This document shows, piece after piece, positions 14,701 to 35,130 of a stretch of 64,000 nt of DNA. Origin of the DNA: Marinobacterium stanieri (lineage in GTDB: Bacteria > Pseudomonadota > Gammaproteobacteria > Pseudomonadales > Balneatricaceae); NCBI RefSeq assembly GCF_900155945.1, contig NZ_FTMN01000012.1, positions 62,001 through 126,000 on the forward strand, given 5' to 3'. Each line of letters opens with the position of its first letter. The first letter of the stretch is position 1. The translations under genes were made by a program, and so were the position numbers. The notes beneath the pieces were generated by a model. It saw only the letters and a list, made by a program, of their open reading frames with translations. It was not told the DNA's origin and did not search any database.

Positions 14701-14702
14701 GA

Positions 14703-16028
14703 TTATTCTCCCTCACCCGTTCGCCAGACAACGTTGGACAGCAGCACTATCTCTACTCGGCGGTTCTTGGCTCTTCCTTCTGCACTACCGTTGTCGGCAA
14801 CCGGAACGGTGTCGGCCTTTGCTTCCACTTCGAAACGTTCAGATTCACGTGTGTAAGCGGCCAAATGATCGGCCACTTCTTCCGCTCGAGCCAAAGAGAG
14901 ATGCCAATTGGATGGATATTTGAAAGTACTGATTGGCTGACTATCTGAGTGCCCTTCCACCAGAACTTTGCCTTCAACCTCATACAGGGCCTGGGCGATT
15001 CGCTTCAGCAAGGGCTCATAACTGGCAATAATTCCCGCTTGTGCAGAACGGAAAAACAGATCCCCCCGCAAGATTATTCGCACACGGTTATCACGTTCCT
15101 CTACAGCCACCAGGTTTTCATCGATTTCCGGCTTTAGAAAAATACGCAACTTTTGCAGGGCCGAGAGATCAACAACACGTTGGCGTTCGAAAGAAGTACT
15201 TACACTTTCAGCAAGATTCGCTGCATCACGAAACACGGGGGTCGATATTTGGTTTAGCAGGTATAGCAAGGTGAAAAACAATAATGCCAGCACACCTGCC
15301 ATCACCGCTGTAAAAGCCCACAGAGGGACAAACCTGCGAAGGTTTCGATTTGCACTGGCGACACCTTGCCAATGAGGTGAAAGCTGTCGAATGGTCTCAC
15401 CACGCTGGGTCCGAATCACTCGATACAAGCGAGAACGGATCTCTGCAAGCTTTCCCATCCGGTCTGCCTCCAGGGCGTATCGACCTTCAAAGCCAAGTGT
15501 CAGGCAGATATACATTAACTCGAGAAGATCCACATTGGCTCCCGGGTCTTTTTCAAGCCGGGTCAACATGATAAAAAAGTTCTCCCCTCCCCAAGTTTCA
15601 TTATGAAAAATGCTTAGAAGACTGCGTGTTTGCCAATCACTCTGCCCTCCCCAAGGGGTATTCAGAACAACTTCGTCCAGAACTGTGCATAATATATAAC
15701 GCCCCATCATCACAGTTCTGATGTCAACACCTGACTGACGAGCATTATTTTCATACTGCTCAATTTCTTCGCTCATCTGCTGGCGTAACAAACCCGCACT
15801 GGGATTGGAATGTGAGCGCCTGATAGTAGGAATCAGGCTCAACAACTTGAAGGCAGCATTTTCCAGACGATTGAAGCCGGAACTCACCTTGCCATCACAG
15901 TCATCAAAAAGCGTCGACCACTGCCCAGTCGCTCGATCATGAGGGTCCGTTGCAGGTTCAGAAAAGCCTGACTGCCCGCCGGGTGTTGGAATAACGACCG
16001 TACGATCACCGCTGAAATCCATTTCCAC
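14703..16028 (-). CDS. tssL: T6SS membrane protein TssL with C-terminal OmpA-like domain
   Basis: This 441-residue protein has a DotU/TssL cytoplasmic domain (about 45-215, with YILCTVLDEVVLNTPWGG and TWGGENFFIMLTRL). A single membrane segment (about 233-258) leads to a periplasmic OmpA/MotB-like domain (about 320-441). That domain keeps the peptidoglycan-contacting GHSDSQPI and the closing NRRVEIVL. It is the specialised type of TssL that supplies its own cell-wall anchor, so no TagL-like gene is needed. It lies 20 nt after tssK and 2 nt before tssM. Confidence 0.95.
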   Translation of the reverse strand: MEMDFSGDRTVVIPTPGGQSGFSEPATDPHDRATGQWSTLFDDCDGKVSSGFNRLENAAFKLLSLIPTIRRSHSNPSAGLLRQQMSEEIEQYENNARQSGVDIRTVMMGRYILCTVLDEVVLNTPWGGQSDWQTRSLLSIFHNETWGGENFFIMLTRLEKDPGANVDLLELMYICLTLGFEGRYALEADRMGKLAEIRSRLYRVIRTQRGETIRQLSPHWQGVASANRNLRRFVPLWAFTAVMAGVLALLFFTLLYLLNQISTPVFRDAANLAESVSTSFERQRVVDLSALQKLRIFLKPEIDENLVAVEERDNRVRIILRGDLFFRSAQAGIIASYEPLLKRIAQALYEVEGKVLVEGHSDSQPISTFKYPSNWHLSLARAEEVADHLAAYTRESERFEVEAKADTVPVADNGSAEGRAKNRRVEIVLLSNVVWRTGEGE

Positions 16029-16048
16029 CTATTCCATTTACAGCGTGG

Positions 16049-17371
16049 TTATTTGATTGCCCACAATTCCAGTTGAATACCAGGAAACTGGCTGCCAATA
16101 TGCAATGCCAAACCTCTGGACTCACATATCTGTTGCCACAAGACTCCCTGAGTGGCCAACTCGAAGTACACAGCGCCGTTGTAGTAGGGGATTTGACGTG
16201 GAGCGACAGGAAGGGGCTCCAAACGGACACCTGGCAATTGCCGGTTAACCAGACTGGTAATCTGCTCCAACGGACCAATCTTGGCCTGGGCCGGCAACAG
16301 GCTCCTTAGATCCTCCCGCGGCATATCCGCTCTGACACAGAGTACAAACAGAGATTCAGATTCTGTTTCCGGTATATAACCGACGCGGATTCCATACCCT
16401 TTTTCTTCGAGCTCAATCTTGATTGCATTTTGATCAAGCATCGTACCAAGTGGCTGCTGCAATACCGCCTCAAATGCTTCGAATGTCTGTTGAAGATCCT
16501 CATGCTGATAAACCGGTCGGCCTCTCAGCTTCTTGCCTTCCGCAGTAAATGTGGCTAATTCACCGGCATACTGCACAAGCACACGGTACAGCTCAGCCGG
16601 ATGCAGATGATCTGTTTTGGTATAATGCTCAAGTAAAGGTTCTTGCCGGTTCAGCAACTGCAAAAGTAAAAAATCCGCCACCTCGACGGATCCGCCACCT
16701 GCTGCAGAATTAAGTCTATCTGCAAGCGCCATAATTCGCATTTGTGTTAACCCATGCACCTCATTCAAAACTTTTGATATCAAGGTTGAATGCATTGCAT
16801 TCAGGGTTGGCGCCACATAGTTTTCATCCAGCTCAACCGACTGGTTTTTTACTGACCGAATACGTGCAACAGGTATCCCCGTAAACTGGTGATGATATTC
16901 TCGAGCGGGCAGAAGATGCGTTTTCTTTCCTGCAACTTCAATATCTGCCAATGTACTTGATCCTGCGACTACATCGGGAACTTCCAGACTGGATATCCGG
17001 TAGCGGGCATTCGTATCCGCTTGCACCTGACGATCTATATCTTTAGTTCCTGCCCGCCAGATAGGCGTAGCCAAATATACCAGGCTGCCTTCATCCTCAA
17101 CCGTCAGCTCAAGCGGTTCGGGAACATCGTCTTCTGCCGGGATAACAATCAGGCTGCCATCAGGCATGATGGCACGGCACTTCCTGATCACAACCTTACC
17201 CAGGCGCAACGCGGAGTCATCAAACTCCAGCGCACTGACCCCCCATCCATATGGGTGAAGTTGAGCACGTGTCTCACTGAACATTTGCTCTAAATAGCGG
17301 TCCTGCTGTTGAAAATGCTGCGGCCGGATAAACATCCCTTCAAGCCACGCAACCTTGCGATGCCAACTCAT
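16049..17371 (-). CDS. tssK: T6SS baseplate-membrane connector TssK
   Basis: This 440-residue protein is TssK (ImpJ/VasE), the trimeric cytoplasmic adaptor that links the baseplate to the TssL-TssM membrane complex. Its opening (VAWLEGMFIRPQHFQQQDRY) is the strongest family signature. LLPAREYHHQFTGIPVARI is also typical. Length matches the family. It starts 6 nt after tssJ. Confidence 0.96.
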   Translation of the reverse strand: MSWHRKVAWLEGMFIRPQHFQQQDRYLEQMFSETRAQLHPYGWGVSALEFDDSALRLGKVVIRKCRAIMPDGSLIVIPAEDDVPEPLELTVEDEGSLVYLATPIWRAGTKDIDRQVQADTNARYRISSLEVPDVVAGSSTLADIEVAGKKTHLLPAREYHHQFTGIPVARIRSVKNQSVELDENYVAPTLNAMHSTLISKVLNEVHGLTQMRIMALADRLNSAAGGGSVEVADFLLLQLLNRQEPLLEHYTKTDHLHPAELYRVLVQYAGELATFTAEGKKLRGRPVYQHEDLQQTFEAFEAVLQQPLGTMLDQNAIKIELEEKGYGIRVGYIPETESESLFVLCVRADMPREDLRSLLPAQAKIGPLEQITSLVNRQLPGVRLEPLPVAPRQIPYYNGAVYFELATQGVLWQQICESRGLALHIGSQFPGIQLELWAIK

Positions 17372-17377
17372 AATCCT

Positions 17378-17926
17378 TTATTCGCCCTCTACCATTTCAA
17401 TTGCGGACCGTTCCGCCACCACATCGATCCGCATGGCTCTTTGCGAGGAAATAATACGACTCAAAAAACCTCGCGAATCTCGCACCTGCAAAGAGTCACG
17501 CCAGCTAGACTCATCGATATCACGGTACGCCGCGACGACACCTATGTAGCGGGTTCGCGGGTTCAAATCGGTGCTGATACTTTCATTACCTCCGGGAAGC
17601 AATATCAAATACTGCTCATCCAAAAGCCCTTCGGGCTTACTGGCTCCTTGATACAATGAGAAAAAGTCTTTCCGTTGAAAATCATTGATATTTTCAAATT
17701 GGTAAACTCGAACTTCAAGAGGTGATGCCTGCCCACTGTCATCAGGGTTTATATCTGTATTTGCATCAATATACATTTCGAGCTTAATGGGCTTTCCCTT
17801 ATCCACCAAAACTTCCTCAATACCATCAAGTGGATTAAGAATGGCTTCTATAGGGTTCTTGCTGGCACACCCGGCGAGATGCAACACAGCAAAAATTAAA
17901 ACTACCCATTTACAATACAGTTTCAT
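17378..17926 (-). CDS. tssJ: T6SS outer-membrane lipoprotein TssJ
   Basis: This 182-residue lipoprotein has a short signal peptide with lipobox LAGC (Cys 20), followed by a small beta-sandwich domain. Segments EVRVYQFENINDF and ARYIGVVAAYRDID-like sequence are typical of TssJ (SciN/VasD). It tethers the C-terminal domain of TssM to the outer membrane. It overlaps the fha gene by 4 nt and lies just before tssK. Confidence 0.92.
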   Translation of the reverse strand: MKLYCKWVVLIFAVLHLAGCASKNPIEAILNPLDGIEEVLVDKGKPIKLEMYIDANTDINPDDSGQASPLEVRVYQFENINDFQRKDFFSLYQGASKPEGLLDEQYLILLPGGNESISTDLNPRTRYIGVVAAYRDIDESSWRDSLQVRDSRGFLSRIISSQRAMRIDVVAERSAIEMVEGE

Positions 17927-19359
17927 TTCAACTGCCTTAGTCGATCTTCATAAGCTTTACCAAACTCATTGGCAAATAGGCTTTGAAAGTCGTCTTTCAT
18001 GAGAGAGCAAATTTCCTCATAAAAGTCTTTATACTCTTTCCAGTAGTCAATCTGCTCACGCCCCATAATATTTCTGCTTTTGTACCTGGGCCTGCGTGTA
18101 AAACCATCCTCCAGTTGGCCAGGGTCAAACCTTGAAAGCAACTTTTCAAATGCAGATTGGATACCAGACATCATAGCCAATTGATGTGCCTGAACATCAC
18201 GAAACCCCTCCGTAGCCGCAGCAGAAGAGCTCATATATGCAGAAGAACCTGACATAAGCATAATTTTGAGCGCCTCCACACCTGTTGGAGAAAACTTGAG
18301 CGGATTGTTTTCGGAGGGTCTGATCATGGTTTGTTGCAATCTGAACTCACCTTTCACCAGGCTCCGCGTTGCCAAGGCTTCAACAATTCCTTGTAACAGG
18401 ATTCTCAACAATTCACCCAGTTCCTTTGCGACCTCACTTGTATCTTTATCGCTTCGGTTGAGCTCAGCTGAAACACCAGCAGACTCAAGAAACAACTCAA
18501 AGTCACTTTTTGAGTTATTACACGGATTAGTGTTTGCCGCTCGCGCCTCAGAAAGCTCAACCTGTGGAGTGCTTGTAAAAGCCTCGGAGGAGCCCTCAGT
18601 CTCTACAACAGGCGTCCGATTCAAATCCTGCTGCACAAACGCTTCAGTATCATGCTGGGTTTGAAAATCTGGCTCGTCGGCCATACCTGTAACGGCTGTT
18701 GACCCGCCTGAAGCGATTACAGGGGGAACTGTTGTTCCTTCCAACTGGTCAAGCCAGTTCTCGGGAATTGCCCCGCTAACTGGCGTATCAACTCGCTCAT
18801 CGGGTGGCCCGCTGAATGCTGGTGAAACCTCGGAGGCAGACGGCACCCTGAAAGTTTCCTTTTCAGGAGGAACCACTTTCTGTGCTATACGGTTAATCTG
18901 GGGACTATCTAAATGAGCGCCGTGAGAACCCAGATCAGGAACTGGCGCAATGATTTTGGCAAAGTCAGGTGTTTCTCCGATAGGGGAATCCATTGACAAC
19001 AACTCATCAAAAGATTCACCGACGCTCTCAGGCGCACCAACATCTGAGAGCTCTGCTTTGATTTCGAAGCCCCCTACAGTAAATAAGTCACCCTGCTTCA
19101 AGACGATACTTGAACCACGACCAACAGGCTCATCTGCTCCATTCAGGAACACACCGTTGGTACTAATATCAGTTAAATGGAACTCGTTGTTTTTGCGATG
19201 AATGACACAATGCTTACTAGAGATATGCAGGTCGGGGTCAGGCAATACCCAAGAATTATCCGTGCCTCGACCGATAGAAAAAACATCCACATCGACCAAA
19301 ACACTCTCGGCGCCCGAGCCAAAATGTTGCCCATTGACGACTATTAAATTCAGTTCCAT
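17923..19359 (-). CDS. fha: T6SS FHA-domain scaffold protein (Fha/TagH)
   Basis: This 478-residue protein has an N-terminal FHA domain (about 24-95). Its phosphothreonine-binding pattern is GRGTDNSW, SSKHC and TDISTNGVFLNG. A low-complexity Ser/Pro/Glu linker (about 105-285) leads to the ImpI/VasC C-terminal domain (about 290-478, with RPRYKSRNIMG). In other bacteria Fha is phosphorylated by PpkA and dephosphorylated by PppA to trigger assembly. It is the first gene of the cluster, with an AGGA ribosome site about 10 nt before the ATG. A long AT-rich region lies upstream. Confidence 0.92.
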   Translation of the reverse strand: MELNLIVVNGQHFGSGAESVLVDVDVFSIGRGTDNSWVLPDPDLHISSKHCVIHRKNNEFHLTDISTNGVFLNGADEPVGRGSSIVLKQGDLFTVGGFEIKAELSDVGAPESVGESFDELLSMDSPIGETPDFAKIIAPVPDLGSHGAHLDSPQINRIAQKVVPPEKETFRVPSASEVSPAFSGPPDERVDTPVSGAIPENWLDQLEGTTVPPVIASGGSTAVTGMADEPDFQTQHDTEAFVQQDLNRTPVVETEGSSEAFTSTPQVELSEARAANTNPCNNSKSDFELFLESAGVSAELNRSDKDTSEVAKELGELLRILLQGIVEALATRSLVKGEFRLQQTMIRPSENNPLKFSPTGVEALKIMLMSGSSAYMSSSAAATEGFRDVQAHQLAMMSGIQSAFEKLLSRFDPGQLEDGFTRRPRYKSRNIMGREQIDYWKEYKDFYEEICSLMKDDFQSLFANEFGKAYEDRLRQLK

Positions 19360-22841: not shown

Positions 22842-24932
22842 TTACTGGAGCAGAGACAGTACCTGCTGGGGAGCGGCATTGGCCTGCGCCAGCATGGAAG
22901 TACCAGCCTGCTGCAATACCTGAGCACGGGACAGGTTTGCTGATTCCTGTGCAAAGTCAGCGTCTTCGATACGTGAACGAGCTGCAGACACGTTCTCGGA
23001 GATGTTGGACAGGTTATTCATAGTGAAGTCCAGACGGTTCTGAACCGCACCCAAATCACCGCGAGTCTCGTTGATCTTTTCCAGCGCGTTATCGATTGCG
23101 CCAATTGCTTTCTGAGCACCTGCAGCAGTACTGATGTCGATGTTGGCAATAGATGAGCCATCTTCACCGCCGCCGTAAGTACCCACCTTCAAGCCCGAAT
23201 TGGCAATATTACCTGTAGACCCGTTGGAAACAGTAATCTCGCTATCAGACTTGAGAGTAAACTCACCAATAAAGGTAGAGTTTGCTGCCACACCAACTTC
23301 GGAGCCGTTGGTAACATTCAGTTCAATATTACGGCCATCTTCGGCAATCAGCTGCACACCGCCGCCTGCGGTAGTGCCGTCTTCACCTGTATCGACAGCA
23401 GTCACGCCTGTTTGATCAGAAATAGCATTCACTGCATCAACGAAAGTCTGACGGTTAATGCTGTTGTCTGTGGTACTTGTGAATGCTTGAATTGAAACAC
23501 CGTTGATGGTGCCGGACACCGCTGCACTACCTGCATTGGTCTGAGCTGTATCGTTATTAACGATATTTTCATTTACGACAGCTGTAACACCTGTCTTGTC
23601 AGAGACCTCGTTAATGGCAGCAGCTTTGGAAATCGCACTCGCATCCTTATTGACACTAGAGGCTGTATCATCAACAGCTGACGAGGCACCAATAGACACG
23701 CCATTGATCACAACATCTCCGGCAACCAGCGCTGTTGTACTGTCATTCAAATTTGAAGAAACCTGAGAAGCGGCGCCACTGTAGGAGCCTTCCTGGAAAC
23801 CAGCATCAGCAGCACTACCTGTTGCGCCAGATTCAATAGTGATATCACTTCCACTGTCAGAAACAAGCGTTACAGTGCCAGTAGCAATTCGAGCCGCGCC
23901 ATCATTACCACCCAGACCAGTCTGAGCGGATGTGACACCAGCAAGCTCCAAGGCAATATTACGGCCGTCATCAGCAACCAAAGTGATACCGCCATCGTCA
24001 CTGTCGGTGTTGACGGCACGGACACCAGTACGATCACTTTCAGCGTTAATTGCGTCAGTAATCGCAGCACGGGTAGTTGCGGCATCTGCGGTAGTTTCAA
24101 CGCTGATTGCAACGCCGTTTACAGTAACGGTACCAGCCGCGTCACCCGCGGTCATTGATGCACCGCCAAGAGTAGTTTCACCTACGACTGCAGTAACGCC
24201 TGTCTGGTCCGATTTTTCATTGATTGCCGCAGCAGTAGAAAGAGCACTGCCAGTTTTACCCGCTGAAGATGCATTGTCTGCTGAAGAGTCAGCTGCATCA
24301 ATGGAAACACCATTAATAACCAGGTCACCGGTGCCCAGCTGAGTCATATTTGTAACCGCAGTGGCAACATCTGCTCCATCTGCAGTCCGGCTAATTGAAC
24401 CAACACCCGCAGAATCGGAAACACCCAAGTTTTCAGAGTCAAGTGCACCGATGCTGAAATCAATAGTCTGATTCGCTTCTGAGCCAACCTGCAGAGAGAT
24501 ATCTCCCAACGTACCGTCAAGAATTTTTTGACCGTTGAAGCTGGTAGTTTCAGCAATTCGAGTCAGTTCTTCTTTCAGCTGTTCAACTTCGGCATTCAAG
24601 GTTGAGCGGTTACCAGTATCATAGGTTCCGTTCGCGGACTGGATTGACAGCTCACGCATACGCTGAAGAATGTTGGTAGACTCGTCCAGTGCACCTTCCG
24701 CGGTCTGGATCAGAGAAACACCATCATTAGCGTTACGAACCGCCTGATCCAAGCCTCGGACCTGAGAGGTCATACGGTTTGCGATGGACAGACCTGCCGC
24801 GTCGTCAGCAGCGGAGTTGATCCGCTTACCACTGGTCAGGCGCTCCATCGAGGTGTTCAGGTCATTCTGGCTCTTGTTCAGCTGATTCTGAGCATTGAGC
24901 GACATGATGTTTGAGTTGATTACCATTGCCAT
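22842..24932 (-). CDS. fliC: Flagellin FliC with duplicated central region
   Basis: This 696-residue flagellin has canonical D0/D1 ends ([19 protein letters not shown]-terminal about 600-696 with [20 protein letters not shown] and closing VLSLLQ). Between them lie two related units of about 180 residues (about 202-381 and 404-584). Each begins GD-VING-SI, has AAAIN-SD-TGVTAVV near its middle and ends in a DDGRNI/EDGRNI segment, so they are Flagellin_IN-type repeats. The Ser/Thr-rich insert is the likely surface-exposed, glycosylated part. The start has a GAGGAG site 8 nt upstream. It has a sigma-28 promoter and strong terminator, with a glycosyltransferase gene divergent to it. Confidence 0.97.
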
Positions 24933-25016
24933 GAGTCGTTCTCCTCAATAGGGCAGCCTGTTCGGCCATTGTGCAATGAAGTATAAATTGAGCAGCATTG
25001 TCTGCTTGTGATCCTG

Positions 25017-25043
25017 TTATCGGCACCCTGCAGCAGGGCTTTA
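25017..25043 (-). promoter_or_regulatory. Sigma-28 (FliA) promoter for fliC
   Basis: Read on the minus strand: TAAAGCCC (25043-25036), an 11-nt spacer, and GCCGATAA (25024-25017), a perfect -10 box with ideal spacing. It leaves an untranslated leader of about 75 nt before fliC. This late-class promoter is the expected control of flagellin. Confidence 0.93.
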
Positions 25044-25196
25044 GAAAAAATTCAGATTGATTTCACACCTCTGCTTGGATCGAGAGAAGTTCCACAGGAT
25101 CCACGCCAGTAGTTACTCCAGAACAGCGCATCTAGCGTTCATTTAAATGGAATTTTTAAGTAACCTTTGAGCAAAGATAAGGGCAGGATCTAATTC

Positions 25197-28100
25197 ATGG
25201 CTAAGAAAGCGCGTAACAGGAAACAACAAGCAACAAGAACTGCTCAGACGAATCAGGGGCAGAGTCTGTTAAAGCAGCTAGAACAGCAGTGCAAACGCCT
25301 CCCTAACAATCCCGCCGTTTGGAAAGGGCTTGCAGCCTGGCACTTACAAGAGGGTGACATCGCACGTGCCTTATCACCAGCGAAACGTGCATTTGAACTA
25401 GCCCCTGAAGATGCATCTATTGCGGTGCAATACGCTGCAGCACTTCGCAGAGCCGACCAAATAAACAAAGCAATTGAAGTCTTATCACTGGCATATAACA
25501 CCAACCAAAAAGATGCAAAGCTCTGTAATGACCTTGCACTTATGCATTACAACATAGGCCAATACCAAGCAGCCCTGAACGTCTGCGACTCTTGCTTGGG
25601 AACGAACCTCGAGCAACCAGGGTTACTTCAGCTAAAAGCCTCAGCCCTAAAGGCCCTTCACCGGCTGGAAAAAGCCAAAGGCTTATTTGAACACCTTGCC
25701 AAACTCCAGCCAGCCGACTTCAGGCACTGGATGGACATTGGTAATATTGAACGAGATCTGGGCAATCTGGATCGCGCTCTAGAGTGCTATCAGCAGGCGA
25801 TGACACTCAGCGGCGATGATGCTTCAGCGTACTCAAATTACCTGACAACCTTGCACTATCATCCAGACAAATCCAGAGACGAAATTTTTAAAGCCTGCAA
25901 GTTATGGCAAGAACAATACGCTCCTGCATGGCAGGAAACAGAGCATAAGCATCTCAGCATGGAGCCGGAAAAGAAGCTCCGTATTGGTTTGATATCGGAT
26001 GGTTTCAAACGCAGCCCAGTAGGACAGATGATAACCTCGGTTCTGGAAGCCTTCCCAAAAGAACAAGCAGACTTTATTGCATTCAGTAGCAATGATGCGA
26101 GAGACGACATCACTACTCGTATAGCAAATTGCTGTAGTGAATGGCACCGTATAACACAGCTGTTTGGTCCTGAGCTATTTGAGCATATAAAAAGCCAAAA
26201 AATCGACATCCTTATAGACCTTGCAGGACACAATAACGGCTCCAGAATGTCAGCTATTGCAATGAAGCCTGCCCCCATTATCATAAAATGGGTCGGTGGC
26301 CTCATTAACACCACGGCAGTGGATGCCATCGACTACTTGCTCAGTGACCACATTGAGACGCCGACAGGGCACGATCAATATTATACAGAAAAACTGATCA
26401 AAATGCCTCATGACTATATTTGTTATGATCCCCCAGAATACACACCTGCTGTCAATACGCTACCAGCACTAAATAACGAATACATAACTTTCGGTTGTTT
26501 TAACAATCCAACTAAAATAAATAAAGTCATACTTTCGTGCTGGGCTGACATCATGCACTTGACGCCCAATTCACGTTTGTTGTTAAAAAGCTTCCAATTT
26601 AATAGTCCTGAGTTAGTAAAACGCATAACCCAAGAAATGGAAGCTATGGGAATAGACAAGGACCGACTTATTCTGGAAGGACCGTCCCCACACCAAGAGC
26701 TTCTGCGCTCATATAACCGTGTTGATATAGCATTAGATACTTGGCCATATTCGGGTGGACTTACAACTTGTGAAGCCATGTTAATGGGCGTCCCTGTTGT
26801 GACTTGTACAGGGCCAACTTTTGCAGGTCGACATTCTGCATCACATATCAAGAACGCAGGTATGTACGAGCTAGTTACTGACAGTTTTTCCCAATATAAG
26901 ACCAGGGTTTTAGAACTGACATCAGACTTATCCAGCCTATCTATAATAAGAGAAAACTTGCGTACAATATTTTTACAATCTAATGTTTGTGCAGATAAGG
27001 AGTACGCAAATACACTTTCTATTGTGTTAAGAACAATTTGGAGAAGACATGCTAAAGGACTTGCCACGGAAAGCATTTCTTGCACAGAGACACGTGATAA
27101 AGTCCAGCAAGATTTATCACCCCCCCTTCAAAGTGAAGAGAAAAAAAGTAGAGAAATCTCATCAATCAACCCTAACAAGAAAACTTTTGTCCATTTATGC
27201 TTTAATAATATGCACAGTGAACCACTTCTAGACACTCTGAGTAATGGAAAATATATAGAAGATTATAATAGTATTATCTTTATTGAAAAGACACGAGCAG
27301 TGGTCAACTATGATGTAGATATAACGAAAAACAATTCAGCATATTTTTTTAATGCCTCAGATGATCTACACGATGTCATAAAAACGTGTCTACATTCAAA
27401 CGTTACAGCCGTTTTTATTCATGGAATATTCTTTGAATGGCAACTTAAAGCAATTGAAAAGATAAATGGGGAAAAACCATGTATATGGACATTATGGGGA
27501 GGTGATCTATATGGCAATTTGAATAACAATGATTTTATTGGATTTGTGAATAATAATATTAGTTACGTAGCAACTAGCCTCGATGATGAGATTAGAATTT
27601 TCAATGATACGTTTTCACCCAAGCCATCTTTAGAAATAAAATATGACTTTGGGTACGAAGACATATCTGTTCCAGAAATAAAAGAAAAATTAATCTTTGT
27701 TGGTAATAGCGGAGACCCATCAAATAACCATATTGATATTCTGAGGTCACTCGCTTTAAAACAAGACATAAAAAACTACACTGTTATAATTCCGTATACA
27801 TACAATGGAAATGATGAGTCACTCATTAGCATTAAAGAAGAAATTAAAAACCTAGGTATAAAAAATGTTCACATTTTAACAAAACATATAAAAAAATCTG
27901 ATTACTACAAGGTTTTAGGGTCTGCAGAAATCTATATATCGGCTCATAACAGACAACAAGGATTTGGGCATGTTGCTGCATGTTTTTATTTTGGTGTCAG
28001 CGTGGTAATGAGAAAAGAAATAACGGTTTCAGGGCTTAAGTCATTAAACCCAGTATGGTCTCGAGTAATTCTGAAGCAAGGTTTTTTTGCGCATGACTAT

Positions 28101-28250
28101 GAGGAATTTAAAAAAGCCCATACAATTGAAAGCATGAATAATTCTGAGCTTACCCAAAGAAACAAATCACTATCACGTAGAATATATGGAAGACAATCCT
28201 CTGCCGATACTTTTGCTCAAGCATATAAGCAATTATCTGATGCAGTGTGA
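25197..28250 (+). CDS. Bifunctional glycosyltransferase: TPR/GT41 (SPINDLY/OGT-like) fused to WecF-like GT56; probable flagellin O-glycosyltransferase
   Basis: This 1017-residue cytoplasmic protein has three parts. (1) TPR repeats about 37-215. (2) A GT41 domain about 258-620 with ISDGFKRSPVG (266-276), ILIDLAGHNNGSRM (338-351), TFGCFNNPTKI (431-441) and DTWPYSGGLTTCEAM (514-528), the signature set of SPINDLY/O-GlcNAc-transferase-like enzymes. (3) After a polar linker, about 662-1010 resembles WecF, the dTDP-Fuc4NAc transferase: HGIFFEW (742-748), LWGGDLY (766-772), FVGNSGDPSNNHI (834-846) and NRQQGFGH (918-925). It is divergent to fliC and convergent with the dTDP-sugar operon ending in wecE. 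I infer it puts a sugar on flagellin and extends it with a Fuc4N-type sugar. DNA of the third part is much more AT-rich. Confidence 0.85.
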   Translation: MAKKARNRKQQATRTAQTNQGQSLLKQLEQQCKRLPNNPAVWKGLAAWHLQEGDIARALSPAKRAFELAPEDASIAVQYAAALRRADQINKAIEVLSLAYNTNQKDAKLCNDLALMHYNIGQYQAALNVCDSCLGTNLEQPGLLQLKASALKALHRLEKAKGLFEHLAKLQPADFRHWMDIGNIERDLGNLDRALECYQQAMTLSGDDASAYSNYLTTLHYHPDKSRDEIFKACKLWQEQYAPAWQETEHKHLSMEPEKKLRIGLISDGFKRSPVGQMITSVLEAFPKEQADFIAFSSNDARDDITTRIANCCSEWHRITQLFGPELFEHIKSQKIDILIDLAGHNNGSRMSAIAMKPAPIIIKWVGGLINTTAVDAIDYLLSDHIETPTGHDQYYTEKLIKMPHDYICYDPPEYTPAVNTLPALNNEYITFGCFNNPTKINKVILSCWADIMHLTPNSRLLLKSFQFNSPELVKRITQEMEAMGIDKDRLILEGPSPHQELLRSYNRVDIALDTWPYSGGLTTCEAMLMGVPVVTCTGPTFAGRHSASHIKNAGMYELVTDSFSQYKTRVLELTSDLSSLSIIRENLRTIFLQSNVCADKEYANTLSIVLRTIWRRHAKGLATESISCTETRDKVQQDLSPPLQSEEKKSREISSINPNKKTFVHLCFNNMHSEPLLDTLSNGKYIEDYNSIIFIEKTRAVVNYDVDITKNNSAYFFNASDDLHDVIKTCLHSNVTAVFIHGIFFEWQLKAIEKINGEKPCIWTLWGGDLYGNLNNNDFIGFVNNNISYVATSLDDEIRIFNDTFSPKPSLEIKYDFGYEDISVPEIKEKLIFVGNSGDPSNNHIDILRSLALKQDIKNYTVIIPYTYNGNDESLISIKEEIKNLGIKNVHILTKHIKKSDYYKVLGSAEIYISAHNRQQGFGHVAACFYFGVSVVMRKEITVSGLKSLNPVWSRVILKQGFFAHDYEEFKKAHTIESMNNSELTQRNKSLSRRIYGRQSSADTFAQAYKQLSDAV

Positions 28251-28564: not shown

Positions 28565-29698
28565 TTACCGGTAAAAAAGTTCTACCTGCTCAATCACGCG
28601 ATCAACCTCTTCGAATGTAATGCCATACCATAGAGGCAATCTCAGCAAGCATTCGCTGCCAGAGGTTGTGTATAGGTCATAGCCAGAAAAGTAGCCATAC
28701 CTTTGCCCGGCCAATGAGCTGTGTAAGGGGGTATAATGAAACGTCGCCTGTATCCCTTGTGTAGCTAAATATTGTCGCAATGTTTCGCGCTCAGAAAGAC
28801 TATGAGCCTTCAGGTAGAATATGTGGCCATTGTGCCGACAGGATGGCGGCACCCTTGGCAGCCTAAGTTTTCCACTATTGGCCAGAGCAAGCAGGCCATC
28901 ATAATAACGCTGCCAAACCGCTAGGCGGTATTGGGTGATCTCTTCAGCCCCTTCCAGCTGCGCCCACAAATATGCGGCCTGCAGGTCTGAAGCCAGATGA
29001 CTGCCGCCAACATCAACCCAGCTGTACTTATCCACCTCCCCCCGAATGAACTGACTGCGGTTGGTGCCTTTTTCCCGAATGATTTCAGCACGCTCAATGA
29101 AACGACTGTCATTGACGATCAACAGCCCACCTTCTCCTCCACTGCTGATGTTTTTGGTCTCGTGGAAACTCAAGGTACCCAGATGACCAATACTTCCAAG
29201 GCTCTGCCCCTTGTAGCTAGACAGTATCCCCTGAGCCGCATCCTCGATCACAACCAGCCCGTAGCGCTCGGCAACCGACAGGATAGCCTCCATGTTGCAA
29301 CCCACTCCGGCATAGTGAACCGGTACTATCGCTCGGGTCTTATCCGTTACCGCCGCTTCGATCTTGCTCGCATCAATGTTCATGGTGTCCGGGCACACAT
29401 CGACGAAAACAATTCTAGCCCCACGCAAGACAAAGGCATTGGCCGTACTGACAAATGTGAAGCTTGGCATGATGACCTCGTCCCCGGCCTGGATATCCGC
29501 CAGAATTGCCGCCATTTCCAGTGCTGACGTGCACGAGGGAGTCATCAGCACCCTCTGGGCGGGTAGCTGCCGTTCAAACCAGCCATGACAGCGCTGGGTA
29601 TAGTTACCATCGCCAGCCAAGCGATGGTCATGGATGGCCGAAAGGACATATTGCTCTTCCTTGCCGGTGTGAGGGGGGTTGTTAAAAGGAATGTTCAT
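28565..29698 (-). CDS. wecE: dTDP-4-amino-4,6-dideoxygalactose transaminase (WecE/RffA-like)
   Basis: This 377-residue PLP-dependent DegT/DnrJ/EryC1 aminotransferase is closely similar to E. coli WecE across its length. Shared segments include LMTPSCTSALEMAA (51-64), DEVIMPSFTFVSTANAFVLR (73-92), the lysine segment SFHETKN (Lys 182 forms the Schiff base) and IREKGTNRSQF. It would convert dTDP-4-keto-6-deoxyglucose to dTDP-Fuc4N using glutamate. It is the last gene of the rmlB-rmlA operon, overlapping wbqC by 4 nt. A related sugar such as viosamine cannot be excluded, but WecE is the best fit. Confidence 0.9.
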   Translation of the reverse strand: MNIPFNNPPHTGKEEQYVLSAIHDHRLAGDGNYTQRCHGWFERQLPAQRVLMTPSCTSALEMAAILADIQAGDEVIMPSFTFVSTANAFVLRGARIVFVDVCPDTMNIDASKIEAAVTDKTRAIVPVHYAGVGCNMEAILSVAERYGLVVIEDAAQGILSSYKGQSLGSIGHLGTLSFHETKNISSGGEGGLLIVNDSRFIERAEIIREKGTNRSQFIRGEVDKYSWVDVGGSHLASDLQAAYLWAQLEGAEEITQYRLAVWQRYYDGLLALANSGKLRLPRVPPSCRHNGHIFYLKAHSLSERETLRQYLATQGIQATFHYTPLHSSLAGQRYGYFSGYDLYTTSGSECLLRLPLWYGITFEEVDRVIEQVELFYR

Positions 29699-30390
29699 TC
29701 ACTGAAGCTCTTCATGTACCTTCTTGCGTCCGGGCCGGTATTGAACAACAGGTCAAGAATTGTTACGCCATGTTCAAATGGAGGGTAAAGCTGGGGGTAT
29801 TCAGGGTAGCCGCCATAGTCCATCCATTCAACCGTTACTCCCATGCTTTGGGCAAGGCCTTCATCGAAATAGGCCTGCGCGGTCGGGCCACTCAGATAGG
29901 CTGTACCGCCGACTTGCTTGCAAATATCCAATAGCCGCTCAGTACGCCCCTGTTCCATAACAAAGTCCGAGGAGTTCAGTATCGTTGTACCAATGCCAAG
30001 AATACGATTTATCAGGGAAATAGCTTCTTTGTTGATATCACTGAGGTATTTATGGCCGCAGCTCAGATAAAACATCTCAAACTGTTCGGCATAGAGCGAA
30101 AAATAAGGCGTTTTCCCGTATAGACGCTTTATTTCCTCCCAGTGCCGAATATTCCAAAGCGGATCTGACACTTGGGTTTCATTAATTTTCTGAAGATATT
30201 TCCCTTTGACATCAACGGGAATTGTCAACCACTTCACGCCCGTGGATGTTTTGACCTTGTTTCGATTTCTCCAGTCACGCCTTGTATATTGGACATCATC
30301 GTACAGCACAAAAACGTCAACCGAATTGATCAAGTCAAAGTACCCTTTCCAGGGTATGTAGTTCGATTGAGAGATAGCAACCCTTTTCAT
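29695..30390 (-). CDS. WbqC family protein
   Basis: This 231-residue protein is of the WbqC-like family, identified by the opening ISQSNYIPWKGYFDLI (about 6-21), the RDWRNRNKVKT segment (about 38-48) and the closing YPEYPQLYPPFEHGVTILDL region. Family members sit in O-antigen and flagellin-glycan gene clusters and are thought to act in modification of amino sugars, but their reaction is not established. It overlaps the FAD oxidoreductase gene and wecE by 4 nt each, so it is made with the amino-sugar enzymes. Confidence 0.85.
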   Translation of the reverse strand: MKRVAISQSNYIPWKGYFDLINSVDVFVLYDDVQYTRRDWRNRNKVKTSTGVKWLTIPVDVKGKYLQKINETQVSDPLWNIRHWEEIKRLYGKTPYFSLYAEQFEMFYLSCGHKYLSDINKEAISLINRILGIGTTILNSSDFVMEQGRTERLLDICKQVGGTAYLSGPTAQAYFDEGLAQSMGVTVEWMDYGGYPEYPQLYPPFEHGVTILDLLFNTGPDARRYMKSFSE

Positions 30391-31787
30391 TTTTCGGCTG
30401 CTATATAGCCATTTCGATACAAATCATATAACTCAGGATGAACGCCCCAATCCTTCGCTCCTAAGCTGTCATGGAATGACTCGACCTCAGTTCGTATGCT
30501 TTCTGTCAGCTCAGCCAGCATGGCGCTCTTGGGCGGCACAAAGTCATGCTGATACATGGCACTCAGTTTATGCTTTACAATTTCGGTAACCGCTTTCTCA
30601 CGGGTATATGTCCTGATCAGTGCTCTTTCAGGCTTCCACTCCGAGAAAAGCTCATCAAGCTCAGAGTTTCCATTCAACAGCAGGTCGGAAATATAGTCGG
30701 AGAGAATGGGTGACATGTGAAACCCGTCGCGCTTGGTCCCACTGGCAACGACCAGGTTTTCAATGCTTAACTTCCCCAGTACAGGGTAAGTATCCTCACT
30801 GGTTGGTCTCCAGCCCACACGCGGGTTGACCAATTCTGCATTGTAGAAATCTCTGTTCAACTGCTCCATGGTCCCTTTCATCAGGCTTTCAAGGCTGCCG
30901 ATTCTGGGATAATCCAATGCATAGTCCGCCACATAATTACTGGCACCGATGACAACAGTATCCTGGGTCCGAGGGGCACTATAAATACCGCAGGCCAACC
31001 CCCTGTTCGGGGTTCGAACGCAGTTTGAGAGCTTCGATTCCCGGGGCCGTATTTCGATGGAAACACCGCTGCCATAGAATATTTTTGGCATTTCAACATC
31101 AATGCCTGAGTCAGACATCAGCTTGGTAAGATTGGCTCCGAGGGCAAGCAAGTAGCTATCGGCCTTAACACACTCACCAGACCTCAGTTGTACCGAGGAT
31201 ATTATCCCTGATGTCATCTCCAGCGATGCCGCGCAGTCATCGATAAAACTGACCCCCATATTTTCCAGAGCACATTCGACATACTGAATGACTTGTTCAC
31301 TGTTGACGAAGTTCTCACGCTCAATATAAATCGCGCGCAGTGCCCGCCCTGATGCTGCAGGCGAATAACCCGGTATCTCCGTAGGCCTGACCCACTGGTA
31401 AGCCTCATTAAACTCTTCAAGGTAATCGACAATGGCATCAAAGCTTTCGTCTTCTGAAACGTCCGTGCTGCCGTTATTCAGCACAAAGGTGCCTTTGCCA
31501 ATGCCAGGTCTGGAGACCTCATACTCGGGCATTTCAGCAAGGAAATCGCTCCAGGCACGGGCAGCTAACTGGCTTACACTAAATTTCTTGCGGTCGATAG
31601 GATGGTCAAGAGATCCCATAACCAGTTCAGCAAAGCTATTGAGCATCGCTGGAGCAGCAAGAGACGCAGACCCTGTACGTGCCTTGGGCCCGATGATGGT
31701 CACCCTGGCAGCAGGGTTTTTCTGAAGGACTCTCCAGGCAGAAGCAAGCGACAGAATCCCATTACCAACAATTGCAATCCGGTCCAT
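30387..31787 (-). CDS. FAD-dependent oxidoreductase (DAO-like) in the sugar operon
   Basis: This 466-residue protein begins with a Rossmann FAD-binding motif (IAIVGNGILSLASAW, about 4-18). It has the general layout of the DAO/glycine-oxidase family (middle substrate domain; VGWRPTSEDTYPVLG and ASGTKRDGFHMSPILSD near 345-385, which matches the C-terminal FAD contact). About 90 extra residues follow. Such enzymes oxidise C-N bonds of amino acids or amines. Its substrate here may be an amino-acid-derived substituent of the sugar, but that is inference. The ATG at 31787 overlaps the previous stop (TGATG) with AGGAG 5 nt upstream; a GTG at 31790 is the alternative. Confidence 0.75.
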   Translation of the reverse strand: MDRIAIVGNGILSLASAWRVLQKNPAARVTIIGPKARTGSASLAAPAMLNSFAELVMGSLDHPIDRKKFSVSQLAARAWSDFLAEMPEYEVSRPGIGKGTFVLNNGSTDVSEDESFDAIVDYLEEFNEAYQWVRPTEIPGYSPAASGRALRAIYIERENFVNSEQVIQYVECALENMGVSFIDDCAASLEMTSGIISSVQLRSGECVKADSYLLALGANLTKLMSDSGIDVEMPKIFYGSGVSIEIRPRESKLSNCVRTPNRGLACGIYSAPRTQDTVVIGASNYVADYALDYPRIGSLESLMKGTMEQLNRDFYNAELVNPRVGWRPTSEDTYPVLGKLSIENLVVASGTKRDGFHMSPILSDYISDLLLNGNSELDELFSEWKPERALIRTYTREKAVTEIVKHKLSAMYQHDFVPPKSAMLAELTESIRTEVESFHDSLGAKDWGVHPELYDLYRNGYIAAEK

Positions 31788-32551
31788 CACGACTCCTTAA
31801 CAAAGTAAACAAGAGAAGGATAGGTCTTGCACATTTTAAGGGTACCCTTGATTTTTTCAGCTATAAGCTCAAGGTATACTCGACTTTCAGCTTGAATTTC
31901 TTCACGACCAAATTGCCATAACGCAATAACACCACCGTTGTTTAACCGAGGCAGTATTGATCGCATCACTTTTTCCGTAGGTTCATAACAGTTCAAATCG
32001 AAAAAAACATGAGAAAGCGTTAGACCGGGGTTTTGGGACAGGACTTCATCGATTTTTTCATCAGCTAACCCCCTAATTACTTTATGTTTCCCATTTATGC
32101 TACCCAAGACATTATTTCGCTCATGGATATTTAGAAGTTTACCAAGTAAAACTTCATAATTTTCCTCAACGGAATATTTCCCATCCGATATATTATCGAC
32201 TTGGACCTCCTCTTGGGTGAACCCAGAGTAGCCTTCGAACGTATCAAAGGCATAGATACGCCTTTGCGTATTCATAGGCTCATAAACAGCTCTCAGGTTT
32301 TCGCATAGTACGGGAATCATGCCCCGCCAAGTGCCAAAATCCATGATGCACCCAGGGGTTTTCATACCAGCCAGAAACACTTCCTGAACTGCCAGAACCC
32401 TGGCTAGCAGCGACGCTCTCATGAACAGAGGAAGACTTCTTTCCAACTCATTTTGGGGAGCCTGGTAGCTTTGATACAGCTCGAATAACTCGTCTCGTGC
32501 CTGTAACTGGCCAATGTCGGACGATGTAAAAACACTGGGATCATAGCTCAT
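31787..32551 (-). CDS. SAM-dependent methyltransferase-like protein (TylF-like fold)
   Basis: This 254-residue protein has a methyltransferase-like core: CIMDFGTWRGM (about 77-87) in the motif I place, then RIYAFDTFEGYSGF (about 107-120), VIRGLADE, and SHVFFDLNCYEPTEKVM with a metal-site-like Asp. This resembles TylF/MycF-type macrocin or sugar O-methyltransferases found in glycan clusters. GT-cluster context and overlap with its neighbours argue for a sugar or acyl-substituent methylation role. The substrate is not deducible. Confidence 0.7.
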   Translation of the reverse strand: MSYDPSVFTSSDIGQLQARDELFELYQSYQAPQNELERSLPLFMRASLLARVLAVQEVFLAGMKTPGCIMDFGTWRGMIPVLCENLRAVYEPMNTQRRIYAFDTFEGYSGFTQEEVQVDNISDGKYSVEENYEVLLGKLLNIHERNNVLGSINGKHKVIRGLADEKIDEVLSQNPGLTLSHVFFDLNCYEPTEKVMRSILPRLNNGGVIALWQFGREEIQAESRVYLELIAEKIKGTLKMCKTYPSLVYFVKES

Positions 32552-32555
32552 GTGA

Positions 32556-33170
32556 TCAAGTCCTCACTATGATCGTAAATTCATATAGATCATAGTCATG
32601 TATAAGTGATACGTTTCTTGAATACTTGGTTTTACACAAGTGGAAAAGATCAAGAGCGTTAGCATAGTAAAGATCGGGTCTTTTCTTGTCTTCGTCTGAA
32701 TAACTTGTCAAGCAGTTAAATGCGAACCCCTTCTTACTGCTTTCAAACAGGTTATCCAGTACACTCTCGACATATTCACTCCATGCCTCGTCATCCATAC
32801 CCAGCCGTACGTTAAAGATTCCACTGGCAACAGAATAGTCTGCCCCCTGCTGTATGCTGGCAGACTTGGTCAGCTGCATATCGGTATCGGGGTAAGCCTT
32901 AATGCACTCCACCAGCATTTTTTCGGATATGTCATAGCCGCTATAGGCCACCTCATAACCTCTGTCCACCAAGTAGCCATAGAGAGCACCGTAACCGCAG
33001 CCCAAGTCATTCAGCGAGAACACAGTATCCGTCTTGAACAGGGGCAGAAACTGCTCAAACCTTAATGCATGCCCCTGCTCATCCTTCCAGTCCACCCCTT
33101 TTGAGCTAGCACCATGCTGCGTAATTTTTCCGGTGTAGTACTGATTTATAGGTGACAAATCTATCGTCAT
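32556..33170 (-). CDS. Class I SAM-dependent methyltransferase
   Basis: This 204-residue protein has a clear SAM-binding motif I ([15 protein letters not shown], about 53-67), then [11 protein letters not shown] (motif II with the acidic residue) and a C-terminal [22 protein letters not shown] segment. That segment is common in small methyltransferases of polysaccharide and flagellin-glycan clusters. It overlaps rmlA by 4 nt upstream and lies 4 nt before the next methyltransferase gene. It probably methylates the sugar or its N-acyl group; O- versus N-methylation cannot be told. Confidence 0.82.
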
Positions 33171-34033
33171 AGCGTTACAACTCGCTCCAGATATTGTCCA
33201 TAAATGCTGCTGGACAGTCTTTCAGCGGCCATGAGCACATCCTGATCTGAAATCCAGCCCTGGCGCCAAGCAATTTCTTCGAGGCAGGCGATCTTGAAAC
33301 CTTGCCGCTTCTCAATAGTTTCCACAAACTGGGCGGCCTCCAGCAAACTTTCATGGGTGCCCGTATCCAGCCATGCAAAACCACGCCCTAGCAGCTCAAC
33401 ATTCAGGGAGCCTCGCTGGAGGTAAGCTTGGTTGATACTGGTGATCTCCAGCTCTCCCCGGTTCGACGGAACAACAGACCTGGCGATTTCGATAACCTCA
33501 TTGTCATAGAAATAGAGGCCGGTGACAGCATAGTTCGATTTGGGCTGCAGCGGCTTTTCCTCAATAGAAATCGCCCGATAGCCCGTATCAAATTCCACGA
33601 CACCAAACCTTTCAGGATCCTTTACCTGATAACCAAAAACCGTCGCGCCTTGCGTACGGGCGACCGCTTCACGTAACTTGGGTGTAAATCCCTGGCCATA
33701 AAAAATATTGTCGCCCAGCACAAGACATACCCTGTCACCGCCGATAAAGTCTTCACCTATGGTAAAAGCCTGGGCCAAGCCATCCGGGTTTGGCTGGACC
33801 GCATAGCTCAGCTCTATGCCAAACTCTCTGCCATCGCCCAGCAGTCGTTCAAAGCTGTGGATATCTTCGGGAGTGGTAATAAGAAGAATTTCCCGGATTC
33901 CAGCCAGCATCAGGACAGACAAGGGGTAGTAGACCATAGGCTTGTCGTAAATGGGCAAGAGTTGCTTGGACACTCCTTTGGTAATCGGGTAGAGGCGTGT
34001 ACCGCTGCCTCCTGCGAGAATGATACCTTTCAT
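33167..34033 (-). CDS. rmlA: Glucose-1-phosphate thymidylyltransferase RmlA
   Basis: This 288-residue enzyme makes dTDP-glucose from glucose-1-phosphate and dTTP. The nucleotide-binding signature [20 protein letters not shown] lies at about 8-27. [23 protein letters not shown] and [15 protein letters not shown] are all canonical. I choose the ATG at 34033 (AGGAGG 6 nt upstream) over the GTG directly before it. It lies 14 nt after rmlB and begins the dTDP-sugar pathway feeding wecE. Confidence 0.96.
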
Positions 34034-34047
34034 CACTGCCCTCCTGT

Positions 34048-35130
34048 TTACGCAGGCGTGTTATTTTCAACGACACGTTGGCACCATTCGAGATTATTCA
34101 GATACCAGCGAACCGTCTTTTCTATCCCGCTTTCGAATGTTTCCTGCGGTACCCAGCCCAGAGTGCGCTGAATTTTTCCGGTATCAATGGCATAGCGACG
34201 ATCATGGCCGGCCCTATCTTCAACATGTTGGATCAGGTCCCGATATTTGATGGCACCTTCGTGCATATGGGTGGCAGAGATTACCGGGGGTAACAGCTTC
34301 TGCAGTATGTCGCAGATCACCCCGACAACTTCTATATTTCGTTTCTCACTGTGGCCACCAATGTTATAGGTTTCGCCAACATTACCCCGGGTAATCACCG
34401 CATATAGCGCCCTGACATGATCGTCCACGTATAGCCAGTCACGAATCTGATTTCCTGTACCATAAACAGGTATTGGCTTGCCACTGAGAGCATTCAAGAT
34501 CACCAACGGGATCAGCTTTTCCGGGTACTGACAGGGACCATAGTTGTTGGAACAGTTTGACACCAGAACCGGCAAACCATAGGTTCTTCCCCAAGCCCTA
34601 ATCAAGTGATCTGAACTGGCCTTGCTGGCAGAGTAAGGTGAACTGGGCGCATAGGCAGTCTCTTCCCGGAAGAGATGCTCGCGAGCCTGCGGATCATCAT
34701 CCGGGTGTGGCAGGTCACCATATACTTCATCTGTAGACACATGGTGAAAACGGAAAGTAATCTGCCTATCAGGGGACAACTGCTGCCAATACTCCCTGCT
34801 CACGTCCAGCATTGTATAGGTACCGACCACATTGGTTTCTATAAAAGCTGCAGGACCGTCAATCGAACGGTCAACGTGACTTTCAGCTGCAAGGTGCATG
34901 ACCATGTCGGGCTGGTAATGATTAAAAATTTCTTTTACTGCTCTACGGTCACAGACATCTGCCTGTTCAAAGGCATAACGATTTGAGTCAGCAACTGAAA
35001 CCAGATTGAGATCATTGCCAGCATAGGTGAGTTTATCGAGGTTGACTACACAGTGCTGTGTCGATTGAATGAGATAGCGGATCAAGGCAGATCCAATAAA
35101 GCCTGCGCCGCCGGTAACCAAAATTTGCAC
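34048..35130 (-). CDS. rmlB: dTDP-glucose 4,6-dehydratase RmlB
   Basis: This 360-residue short-chain dehydrogenase/reductase converts dTDP-glucose to dTDP-4-keto-6-deoxyglucose. It has the NAD-binding GGAGFIGS (7-14), the catalytic TDE (133-135) and YSASK (166-170), and the C-terminal [16 protein letters not shown] typical of RmlB/RffG. No rmlC or rmlD follows, so the product is directed to amination by WecE rather than to rhamnose within this operon. It is the first gene of the operon. Confidence 0.96.

Follow-up and report, generated by a model that had tools for sequence, protein, structure and literature searches.

The closest described counterparts of the enzyme reported here are the SPINDLY-type GT41 flagellin glycosyltransferases with fused methyltransferase domains that are encoded in the flagellin glycosylation islands of enterobacteria (De Maayer and Cowan 2016, PMC4875605). 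Three further systems are relevant: FlmG of Caulobacter, the N-terminal tetratricopeptide repeat (TPR) part of which binds flagellins (PMC7591256); VioT/VioA of Pseudomonas syringae, where a second transferase adds a modified deoxythymidine diphosphate (dTDP)-4-amino-4,6-dideoxyhexose to the flagellin glycan (PMC3927599); and an insertion between fliA and fliC in Dickeya zeae WH1, which places genes for WbqC, a DegT aminotransferase and a methyltransferase beside fliC (PMC9650423). Here, we analyze a gene of Marinobacterium stanieri, divergent from fliC, whose product combines a TPR superhelix, a GT41 domain and a C-terminal GT56 domain resembling WecF, the transferase of enterobacterial common antigen (ECA) synthesis. 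The gene lies in a stretch of 64,000 nucleotides (contig NZ_FTMN01000012.1, positions 62,001 to 126,000; assembly GCF_900155945.1), which is called the window below and to which all coordinates refer unless another locus is named. To our knowledge, GT56 is known only from lipid-linked polysaccharides.

Like the enterobacterial enzymes, the window protein is a SPINDLY-type GT41 enzyme in a flagellar locus and carries a C-terminal tailoring domain; unlike them, it has GT56 directly after GT41 and lacks the region that usually follows, while the accessible part of PMC4875605 names methyltransferase domains and mentions no GT56 tail. With FlmG it shares solubility and the combination of an N-terminal TPR part with a C-terminal GT-B domain, but FlmG, as far as its description could be consulted, is a protein of 596 amino acids (aa) with a single transferase domain and a pseudaminic acid donor (PMC7591256). 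VioT is a functional precedent for the proposed GT56 step, as a second transferase with dedicated aminotransferase and methyltransferase genes, whereas, in the available portion of the report, it is a separate protein of 1173 aa and its sugar is viosamine on rhamnose (PMC3927599). As in the D. zeae WH1 insertion, genes for WbqC, a DegT-type aminotransferase and a methyltransferase stand beside fliC in the window, but no GT41-GT56 fusion is mentioned in the accessible part of that study (PMC9650423). Finally, the GT56 domain is like WecF in its Pfam score, its landmark motifs and its rml and wecE partners, and unlike WecF of ECA in being fused to a protein glycosyltransferase, in its low identity (19% to E. 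coli WecF), in falling into a separate clade and in belonging to a genome with no match to WzyE. No earlier report of GT56 together with flagellin, or of a GT41-GT56 architecture, was found in the open-licence literature. The original prediction that the architecture is undescribed therefore stands for the GT56 module within that literature but has to be narrowed for the overall plan, as GT41-methyltransferase flagellin fusions were described before, as far as PMC4875605 was accessible.

The open reading frame (ORF) at 25197-28250 was confirmed to encode TPR, GT41 and WecF-like GT56 regions in one protein, divergent from fliC (Table 1). The predicted domain assignment was borne out by profile searches, in which both transferase domains scored above the curated Pfam cut-off of 25 bits (GT41, PF13844, 138.1 bits; GT56, PF07429, 59.1 bits), and the protein matched the solved structure of SPINDLY (7y4i), in which a catalytic domain follows the TPR repeats, at a phmmer E value of 2e-74. 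The landmark motifs of E. coli WecF are shared by the GT56 domain, and the tail was predicted to adopt a GT-B glycosyltransferase fold (predicted local distance difference test score [pLDDT], 81); no entry titled GT56 or WecF was seen among the fold-comparison matches of the tail, which we do not count as contrary evidence. In the predicted model, the TPR part forms helical hairpins (residues 39 to 241, pLDDT mostly >90), and the linker is mostly of low confidence (block mean pLDDT of 48, 33 and 58 over residues 631 to 660). The protein has no segment with the hydrophobicity of a membrane helix (maximum mean over 19 residues, 1.28), and a scan of 24900-25250 for promoters and terminators found no site.

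On the basis of these features and of the comparisons below, we consider it fairly probable that the gene encodes a cytoplasmic enzyme which glycosylates flagellin and unites two catalytic steps in a single polypeptide, with GT56 as a mobile module found in loci with a 4-aminotransferase-type gene. The TPR superhelix would hold FliC before export, the GT41 domain would attach a first sugar to Ser/Thr of flagellin, and the flexibly linked GT56 domain would lengthen the glycan by a modified dTDP-4-amino-4,6-dideoxyhexose, most probably a derivative of 4-amino-4,6-dideoxygalactose (Fuc4N). RmlA, RmlB and WecE would make this derivative, and the products of the neighboring WbqC, DAO, TylF and methyltransferase-like genes would modify it. 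The domains, the tail fold, the neighboring genes, the module transfer and the aminotransferase association carry this reading; from them we infer the activity of both domains, the order of the steps, the identity of both sugars and the acceptor.

The setting fits this proposal. Seven sugar genes, from wecE to rmlB, lie on the minus strand between the fusion gene and flgL, so that a glycosyltransferase and sugar genes sit inside the flagellar cluster next to fliC, as in a flagellin glycosylation island. RmlA, RmlB and WecE together make dTDP-Fuc4N, and the predicted Fuc4N-type sugar thus has its genes adjoining the fusion gene; the locus carries the only WecE, RmlB and GT56 of the genome that score above their cut-offs. 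No RffC-type N-acetyltransferase was found among the seven neighbors scanned.

To place the protein among its relatives, one genome per species was scanned with an alignment of the fusion protein and two congeneric proteins, and the best 80 of at least 458 confirmed relatives were compared. Platform proteins were defined by a score of at least 400 bits to window residues 1 to 645, which yielded 50 proteins: 47 from the 80 loci, the window protein and those of the congeners G004 and G005. They include relatives from Brenneria, Kosakonia, Pantoea and Siccibacter, as well as a frame of 1603 aa in Bordetella genomosp. 13 (L065; 488 bits) that lies under a larger antisense frame. In the stretches examined, tblastn detected FliC homology near all 50 platform genes versus 5 of 33 other GT41 loci, one of which (L080) is itself a platform fragment on a 3-kb contig; together with the divergent fliC, this upholds the flagellar setting that had been claimed for the window.

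Directly after GT41, 45 of the 49 platform proteins compared share a region of about 280 aa that resembles FkbM methyltransferases by BLAST and remains unnamed in most Pfam scans. It is absent from the window protein, where GT56 takes this position, and from L062, L070 and L082. In a Pfam scan of the C-terminal regions of 49 of the 50 proteins, alone or within the whole protein (the remaining one, L082, has no such region), the tails above cut-off were GT56 in four (window, L083, L063 and L065), FkbM in 10, GT2 in five and sulfotransferase in six, with none in 30. Both G004 and G005 carry a platform gene at the same site as the window, between fliC and flgL, and group with Marinobacterium lutimaris on the GT41 tree (99/99); the tail of G005 consists of FkbM plus a further methyltransferase domain, and no Pfam family was found in that of G004. 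Four Chromohalobacter proteins (L046, L047, L048 and L050) have residues 1 to about 912 in common, at 83 to 92% identity, and differ from there on; L046 and L047 have another block of 198 aa in common, which in L046, a protein with a sulfotransferase match in its tail, follows a longer insert. Judging from these sequences, the fusion is no isolated oddity: the flagellin GT41 platform is widespread and carries various exchangeable tails, GT56 among them. As an observation apart, the sulfotransferase domains fused to flagellin TPR-GT41 proteins (L045, L046, L050, L055, L069 and L081) suggest sulfated flagellar glycans.

The search for the same fusion in other genomes, proposed with the original prediction, was successful. 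GT56 is fused to TPR-GT41 in five proteins: that of the window; L083 (Halomonas sp. M20; 1275 aa; GT56, 56 bits); L063 (Oceanisphaera pacifica; 1528 aa; FkbM followed by GT56, 59 bits); L065 (FkbM followed by GT56, 58.4 bits); and G497 (1012 aa; GT41, 108 bits; GT56, 58 bits), which has the architecture of the window protein and stands beside ORFs that were read by eye as fleQ, fleS, fleR, fliE and fliF. A split version occurs in an Oceanospirillaceae metagenome-assembled genome (L082), where a platform gene (593 aa) is followed after 32 bases by a separate GT56 gene (341 aa; 67 bits). The combination is rare. PF07429 matched in 15 of 390 genomes of the order, in 14 of them above cut-off, and only the match of the window itself lies in a long intact frame; the match in G170 is below cut-off, in a frame of 736 aa that is read through a TGA. 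A profile built from four tails (A2) gave six matches over 369 genomes of the class, the only fusions being the window's own and that of G497, and 27 matches over 398 genomes of the phylum, the only fusion being the window's own (the three genome sets overlap). Such rarity, with a single above-cut-off fusion in the order, and the mosaic composition of the gene (see below) might be taken to indicate a recent chimera without function; however, the frame is open, the landmarks are kept, further fusions and a split pair exist in other genera and mosaic composition is common in the family, so that we regard this as the least probable of the explanations considered.

Free-standing GT56 genes were found in the congeners G002, G003 and G007, inside O-antigen-like cassettes of rml and DegT genes, which corrects the earlier assumption that WecF-type domains are known only from ECA; in G002 and G007, these take the form of RmlB-RmlA-GT56-...-WecE runs followed by an ORF that looks, by eye, like a flippase. 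The cassettes lend some plausibility to the idea that the GT56 domain acts, as WecF does, on a lipid-linked or lipopolysaccharide sugar and that the fusion stands beside fliC without any role on flagellin. We consider this very improbable, because GT56 is fused to TPR-GT41 in five proteins at flagellar loci, the fusion protein lacks a membrane-helix-like stretch, no WzyE (PF06899) was matched in the genome (98.67% complete; control matches were obtained in E. coli), and no flippase was found among the seven neighbors scanned.

Comparison of a GT41 tree (52 rows) with a GT56 tree (36 domains) showed that the GT56 module has moved between TPR-GT41 enzymes. The GT56 domains of the window, L083, L063, L065 and L082 form one clade (100/99), distinct from both ECA WecF and the free-standing O-antigen-like domains. 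Their GT41 partners, in contrast, lie scattered over the GT41 tree: the six GT56 bearers require six changes on it, all six being forced by its starred branches alone, and a single GT41 clade of the same five members was rejected (log-likelihood lower by 220.6; approximately unbiased test, P = 8e-9). The GT41 part of L065, for example, groups with two Bordetella ansorpii proteins (100/100; 71% identity to L077), both of which carry GT2 tails. G497 falls outside the five-member GT56 clade in the best tree, although the starred branches alone are compatible with a single origin of all six. The placement of L082 is the least certain, since its branch was flagged as long in both trees.

Base composition was consistent with exchange. 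Within the fusion gene, GC content at third codon positions (GC3) declines from 48% (TPR) through 39% (GT41) to 26% (GT56), compared with an average of 58% for ORFs of >200 aa in the window outside the locus and 43 to 58% for the sugar genes. When a break in GC3 was required to exceed all 200 shuffles, 24 of 50 platform genes showed one, including those of the window, L083, L063 and G497, and L065 showed none; the best break of the window gene, at codon 504, lies inside GT41, away from the domain junction. An earlier idea that such a break marks GT56 alone, derived from five hand-picked controls without a break, was thereby ruled out: mosaic composition is a family trait. The breaks thus support exchange in the platform family in general rather than the tail and the sugar genes having entered the window together. 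The largest break of the family, from a GC3 of 0.73 to 0.31 at codon 923, was seen in Marinobacter azerbaijanicus (L043:2687-6967), the protein of which has an FkbM domain at residues 1258 to 1410.

If the GT56 tail determines which sugar is added, its presence should go with suitable sugar genes. By tblastn, with some of the stretches being short, a WecE-like (DegT) gene was detected at all five GT56 platform loci counted (window, L083, L063, L065 and L082) versus 1 of the 45 others (Fisher P = 2.8e-6). The exception, L076, has a DegT gene without GT56, and its RmlA/RmlB-like genes are only 26 to 27% identical; we still counted it against the association. In L082, as in the window, WecE is above cut-off (644 bits). 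The correspondence is closest in L065, where five of the seven sugar genes of the window have homologues within 6.5 kb after the fusion gene (identities of 57% for WecE and 61% for RmlA; for the others, see Table 1); RmlB was not found there by tblastn, in a stretch reaching about 0.5 kb beyond RmlA. In the tblastn comparison of 83 stretches, WbqC, DAO and TylF matched only in the window and L065. Within the genus (six genomes), an above-cut-off WecE is present in G000, G002 and G007, all with GT56, and G004 and G005 have neither. The common denominator of the GT56 platform loci is, as far as annotation by homology goes, probably a dTDP-4-keto-6-deoxyhexose 4-aminotransferase, with Fuc4N as our best guess for the sugar in the window and 4-amino-4,6-dideoxyglucose (Qui4N) for that in L063 and L083. 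The cassettes with free-standing GT56 in G002 and G007 hint that GT56 and sugar genes of a polysaccharide pathway may have been recruited for flagellin. Two further observations concern these loci. A separate sulfotransferase gene lies next to the aminotransferase gene in both L063 (14640-15488) and L083 (14313-15161), and an ATP-grasp gene, assigned by Pfam, lies beside the GT56 and DegT genes of L082 (12394-13617), and its product may ligate an amino acid to the 4-amino group; an ORF in L128 (10784-11977) resembles the latter gene, by eye only.

Several findings weigh against a two-step enzyme of this kind. The whole-protein model has a predicted template modeling score of 0.64, which leaves the relative position of the two transferase domains unfixed. 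The tail falls far short of the NCBIfam equivalog cut-offs for WecF (79 bits versus 457 and 61 versus 525) and, with its low identity to the E. coli enzyme, may use a different donor. The aminotransferases of L063 and L083 are DesI-like and below the WecE cut-off, which suggests Qui4N rather than Fuc4N there, and G003 has a GT56 gene without an above-cut-off WecE, its only DegT gene scoring 164 bits. A tree-aware sign test of the association had five independent pairs to draw on, too few for P to fall to 0.05 (median P = 0.0625), but every pair that differs points the same way. At G497, no sugar gene was found in the 11 kb examined, on a contig that ends 0.7 kb past the fusion gene. Since GT56 and the sugar genes of the window differ in GC3, their joint arrival is not required. 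The GT41 domain itself is altered: the position of SPINDLY H495 is occupied by Ser273 in the window protein and by Asn in L082, versus His in 48 of 50 relatives aligned, so that activity of this half is not a given. When 80 columns invariant in 48 core rows were scored (core rows by leave-one-out), the window protein departed at 6, L082 at 5 and G497 at 17, compared with at most 3 within the core rows (L063, 1; L065 and L083, 0).

In SPINDLY, H495, which is equated with OGT H558, gives inactive enzymes when changed to Ala or Phe, perhaps for structural reasons, and K665 is essential, according to the accessible part of PMC9715652. That study and the alignment numbering ruled out our alternative assignment of the missing His to the OGT H498 position. 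On the GT41 tree, the His was lost twice, in the window and in L082, both of which have GT56 and an above-cut-off WecE. Together with the inactive H495A and H495F variants (PMC9715652, as accessible) and the long branch of L082, this raises the unlikely but not negligible alternative that GT41 activity was lost or changed, leaving that domain mainly as a scaffold, and that GT56 itself glycosylates flagellin or extends a sugar attached by another enzyme. Yet 74 of the 80 otherwise invariant GT41 columns are retained in the window, K440 and Y518 (SPINDLY K665 and Y744) are present in all 49 platform proteins compared, the His is kept in L083, L063 and L065, the last with the same sugar genes, and L082 has retained its GT41 gene even though the domains are separate genes there. 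A changed donor of the GT41 domain is another option: TPR-GT41 itself would transfer the 4-amino-4,6-dideoxyhexose to Ser/Thr, and GT56 would add a second sugar, equal or different. Only one evident sugar is made by the locus and the substitution occurs in just two loci, both having WecE above cut-off, but the DegT gene accompanies the GT56 module across unrelated GT41 partners and L065 combines a WecE homologue with an unchanged His, which makes this option improbable in our view. For the same reason, our tentative rule that the His is lost wherever WecE accompanies GT56 was withdrawn. Either the GT41 step is altered in the window and L082 or the His is dispensable, the sequences being compatible with both.

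Under the two-step reading, one polypeptide would carry out two successive flagellin glycosylation steps, the tail would predict the terminal sugar from sequence and GT56 would gain a likely role on a protein-linked glycan. We further speculate, as an evenly balanced conjecture, that TPR-GT41 enzymes form a polymorphic system for assembling flagellin glycans, organized like polymorphic toxins, in which a conserved flagellin-recognizing head starts the glycan and exchangeable tails (GT56, GT2, FkbM methyltransferase, sulfotransferase or several at once) spread horizontally with matching sugar genes, as suggested by the GT56 tail and the WbqC-WecE-TylF-DAO-RmlA set common to the window and B. 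genomosp. 13. If so, a single recombination event could give a strain a different flagellar coat, and swappable tails may let bacteria restyle the sugars of that coat. The platform family, for example the four Chromohalobacter proteins, provides natural examples of different modules attached to a shared head, which makes diversification of flagellar glycans by exchange of enzyme modules, e.g., under phage or host pressure, a testable proposition.

Table 1. The TPR-GT41-GT56 fusion gene, its parts and the neighboring genes in the window
Feature	Position	Strand	Basis or remark
TPR-GT41-GT56 fusion gene	25197..28250	+	1017 aa, divergent from fliC
TPR superhelix, residues 1-241	25197..25919	+	TPR families and model; presumed flagellin-binding part by analogy with FlmG (PMC7591256, accessible part)
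GT41 (SPINDLY/OGT-like) domain, about residues 255-620	25959..27056	+	Pfam, phmmer, model
Codon of S273 (SPINDLY H495 position)	26013..26015	+	Alignment; His in 48/50 relatives
Linker, about residues 621-655	27057..27161	+	Mostly low confidence in predicted model
GT56 (WecF-like) domain, residues 656-1017	27162..28247	+	Pfam, motifs, fold, GC3
WecF landmark 1, WTLWGGDLY, residues 764-772	27486..27512	+	Motif alignment
WecF landmark 2, GNSGDPSNNH, residues 836-845	27702..27731	+	Motif alignment
WecF landmark 3, RQQGFG, residues 919-924	27951..27968	+	Motif alignment
fliC, flagellin, 696 aa, presumed acceptor	22842..24932	-	By sequence; homologues beside related enzymes
wecE, dTDP-4-amino-4,6-dideoxygalactose transaminase	28565..29698	-	TIGR02379, 605 bits (cut-off 435); PRK11706, 590 bits (cut-off 375)
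WbqC-like protein	29695..30390	-	PF08889, 254 bits; 50% identical homologue at Bordetella genomosp. 13 (L065)
Flavin adenine dinucleotide-dependent oxidoreductase, DAO family	30387..31790	-	PF01266, 102 bits; 44% identical homologue at L065
TylF-like O-methyltransferase	31787..32551	-	PF05711, 30 bits (cut-off 23); 43% identical homologue at L065
S-adenosylmethionine methyltransferase-like protein	32556..33170	-	All Pfam matches below cut-off
rmlA, glucose-1-phosphate thymidylyltransferase	33167..34036	-	TIGR01207, 510 bits (cut-off 361)
rmlB, dTDP-glucose 4,6-dehydratase	34048..35130	-	TIGR01181, 488 bits (cut-off 365)

Finally, type VI secretion genes, encoding IcmF, DotU, VasE/ImpJ and a forkhead-associated (FHA) protein, were observed at window positions 11146-19359, adjoining the flagellar cluster.

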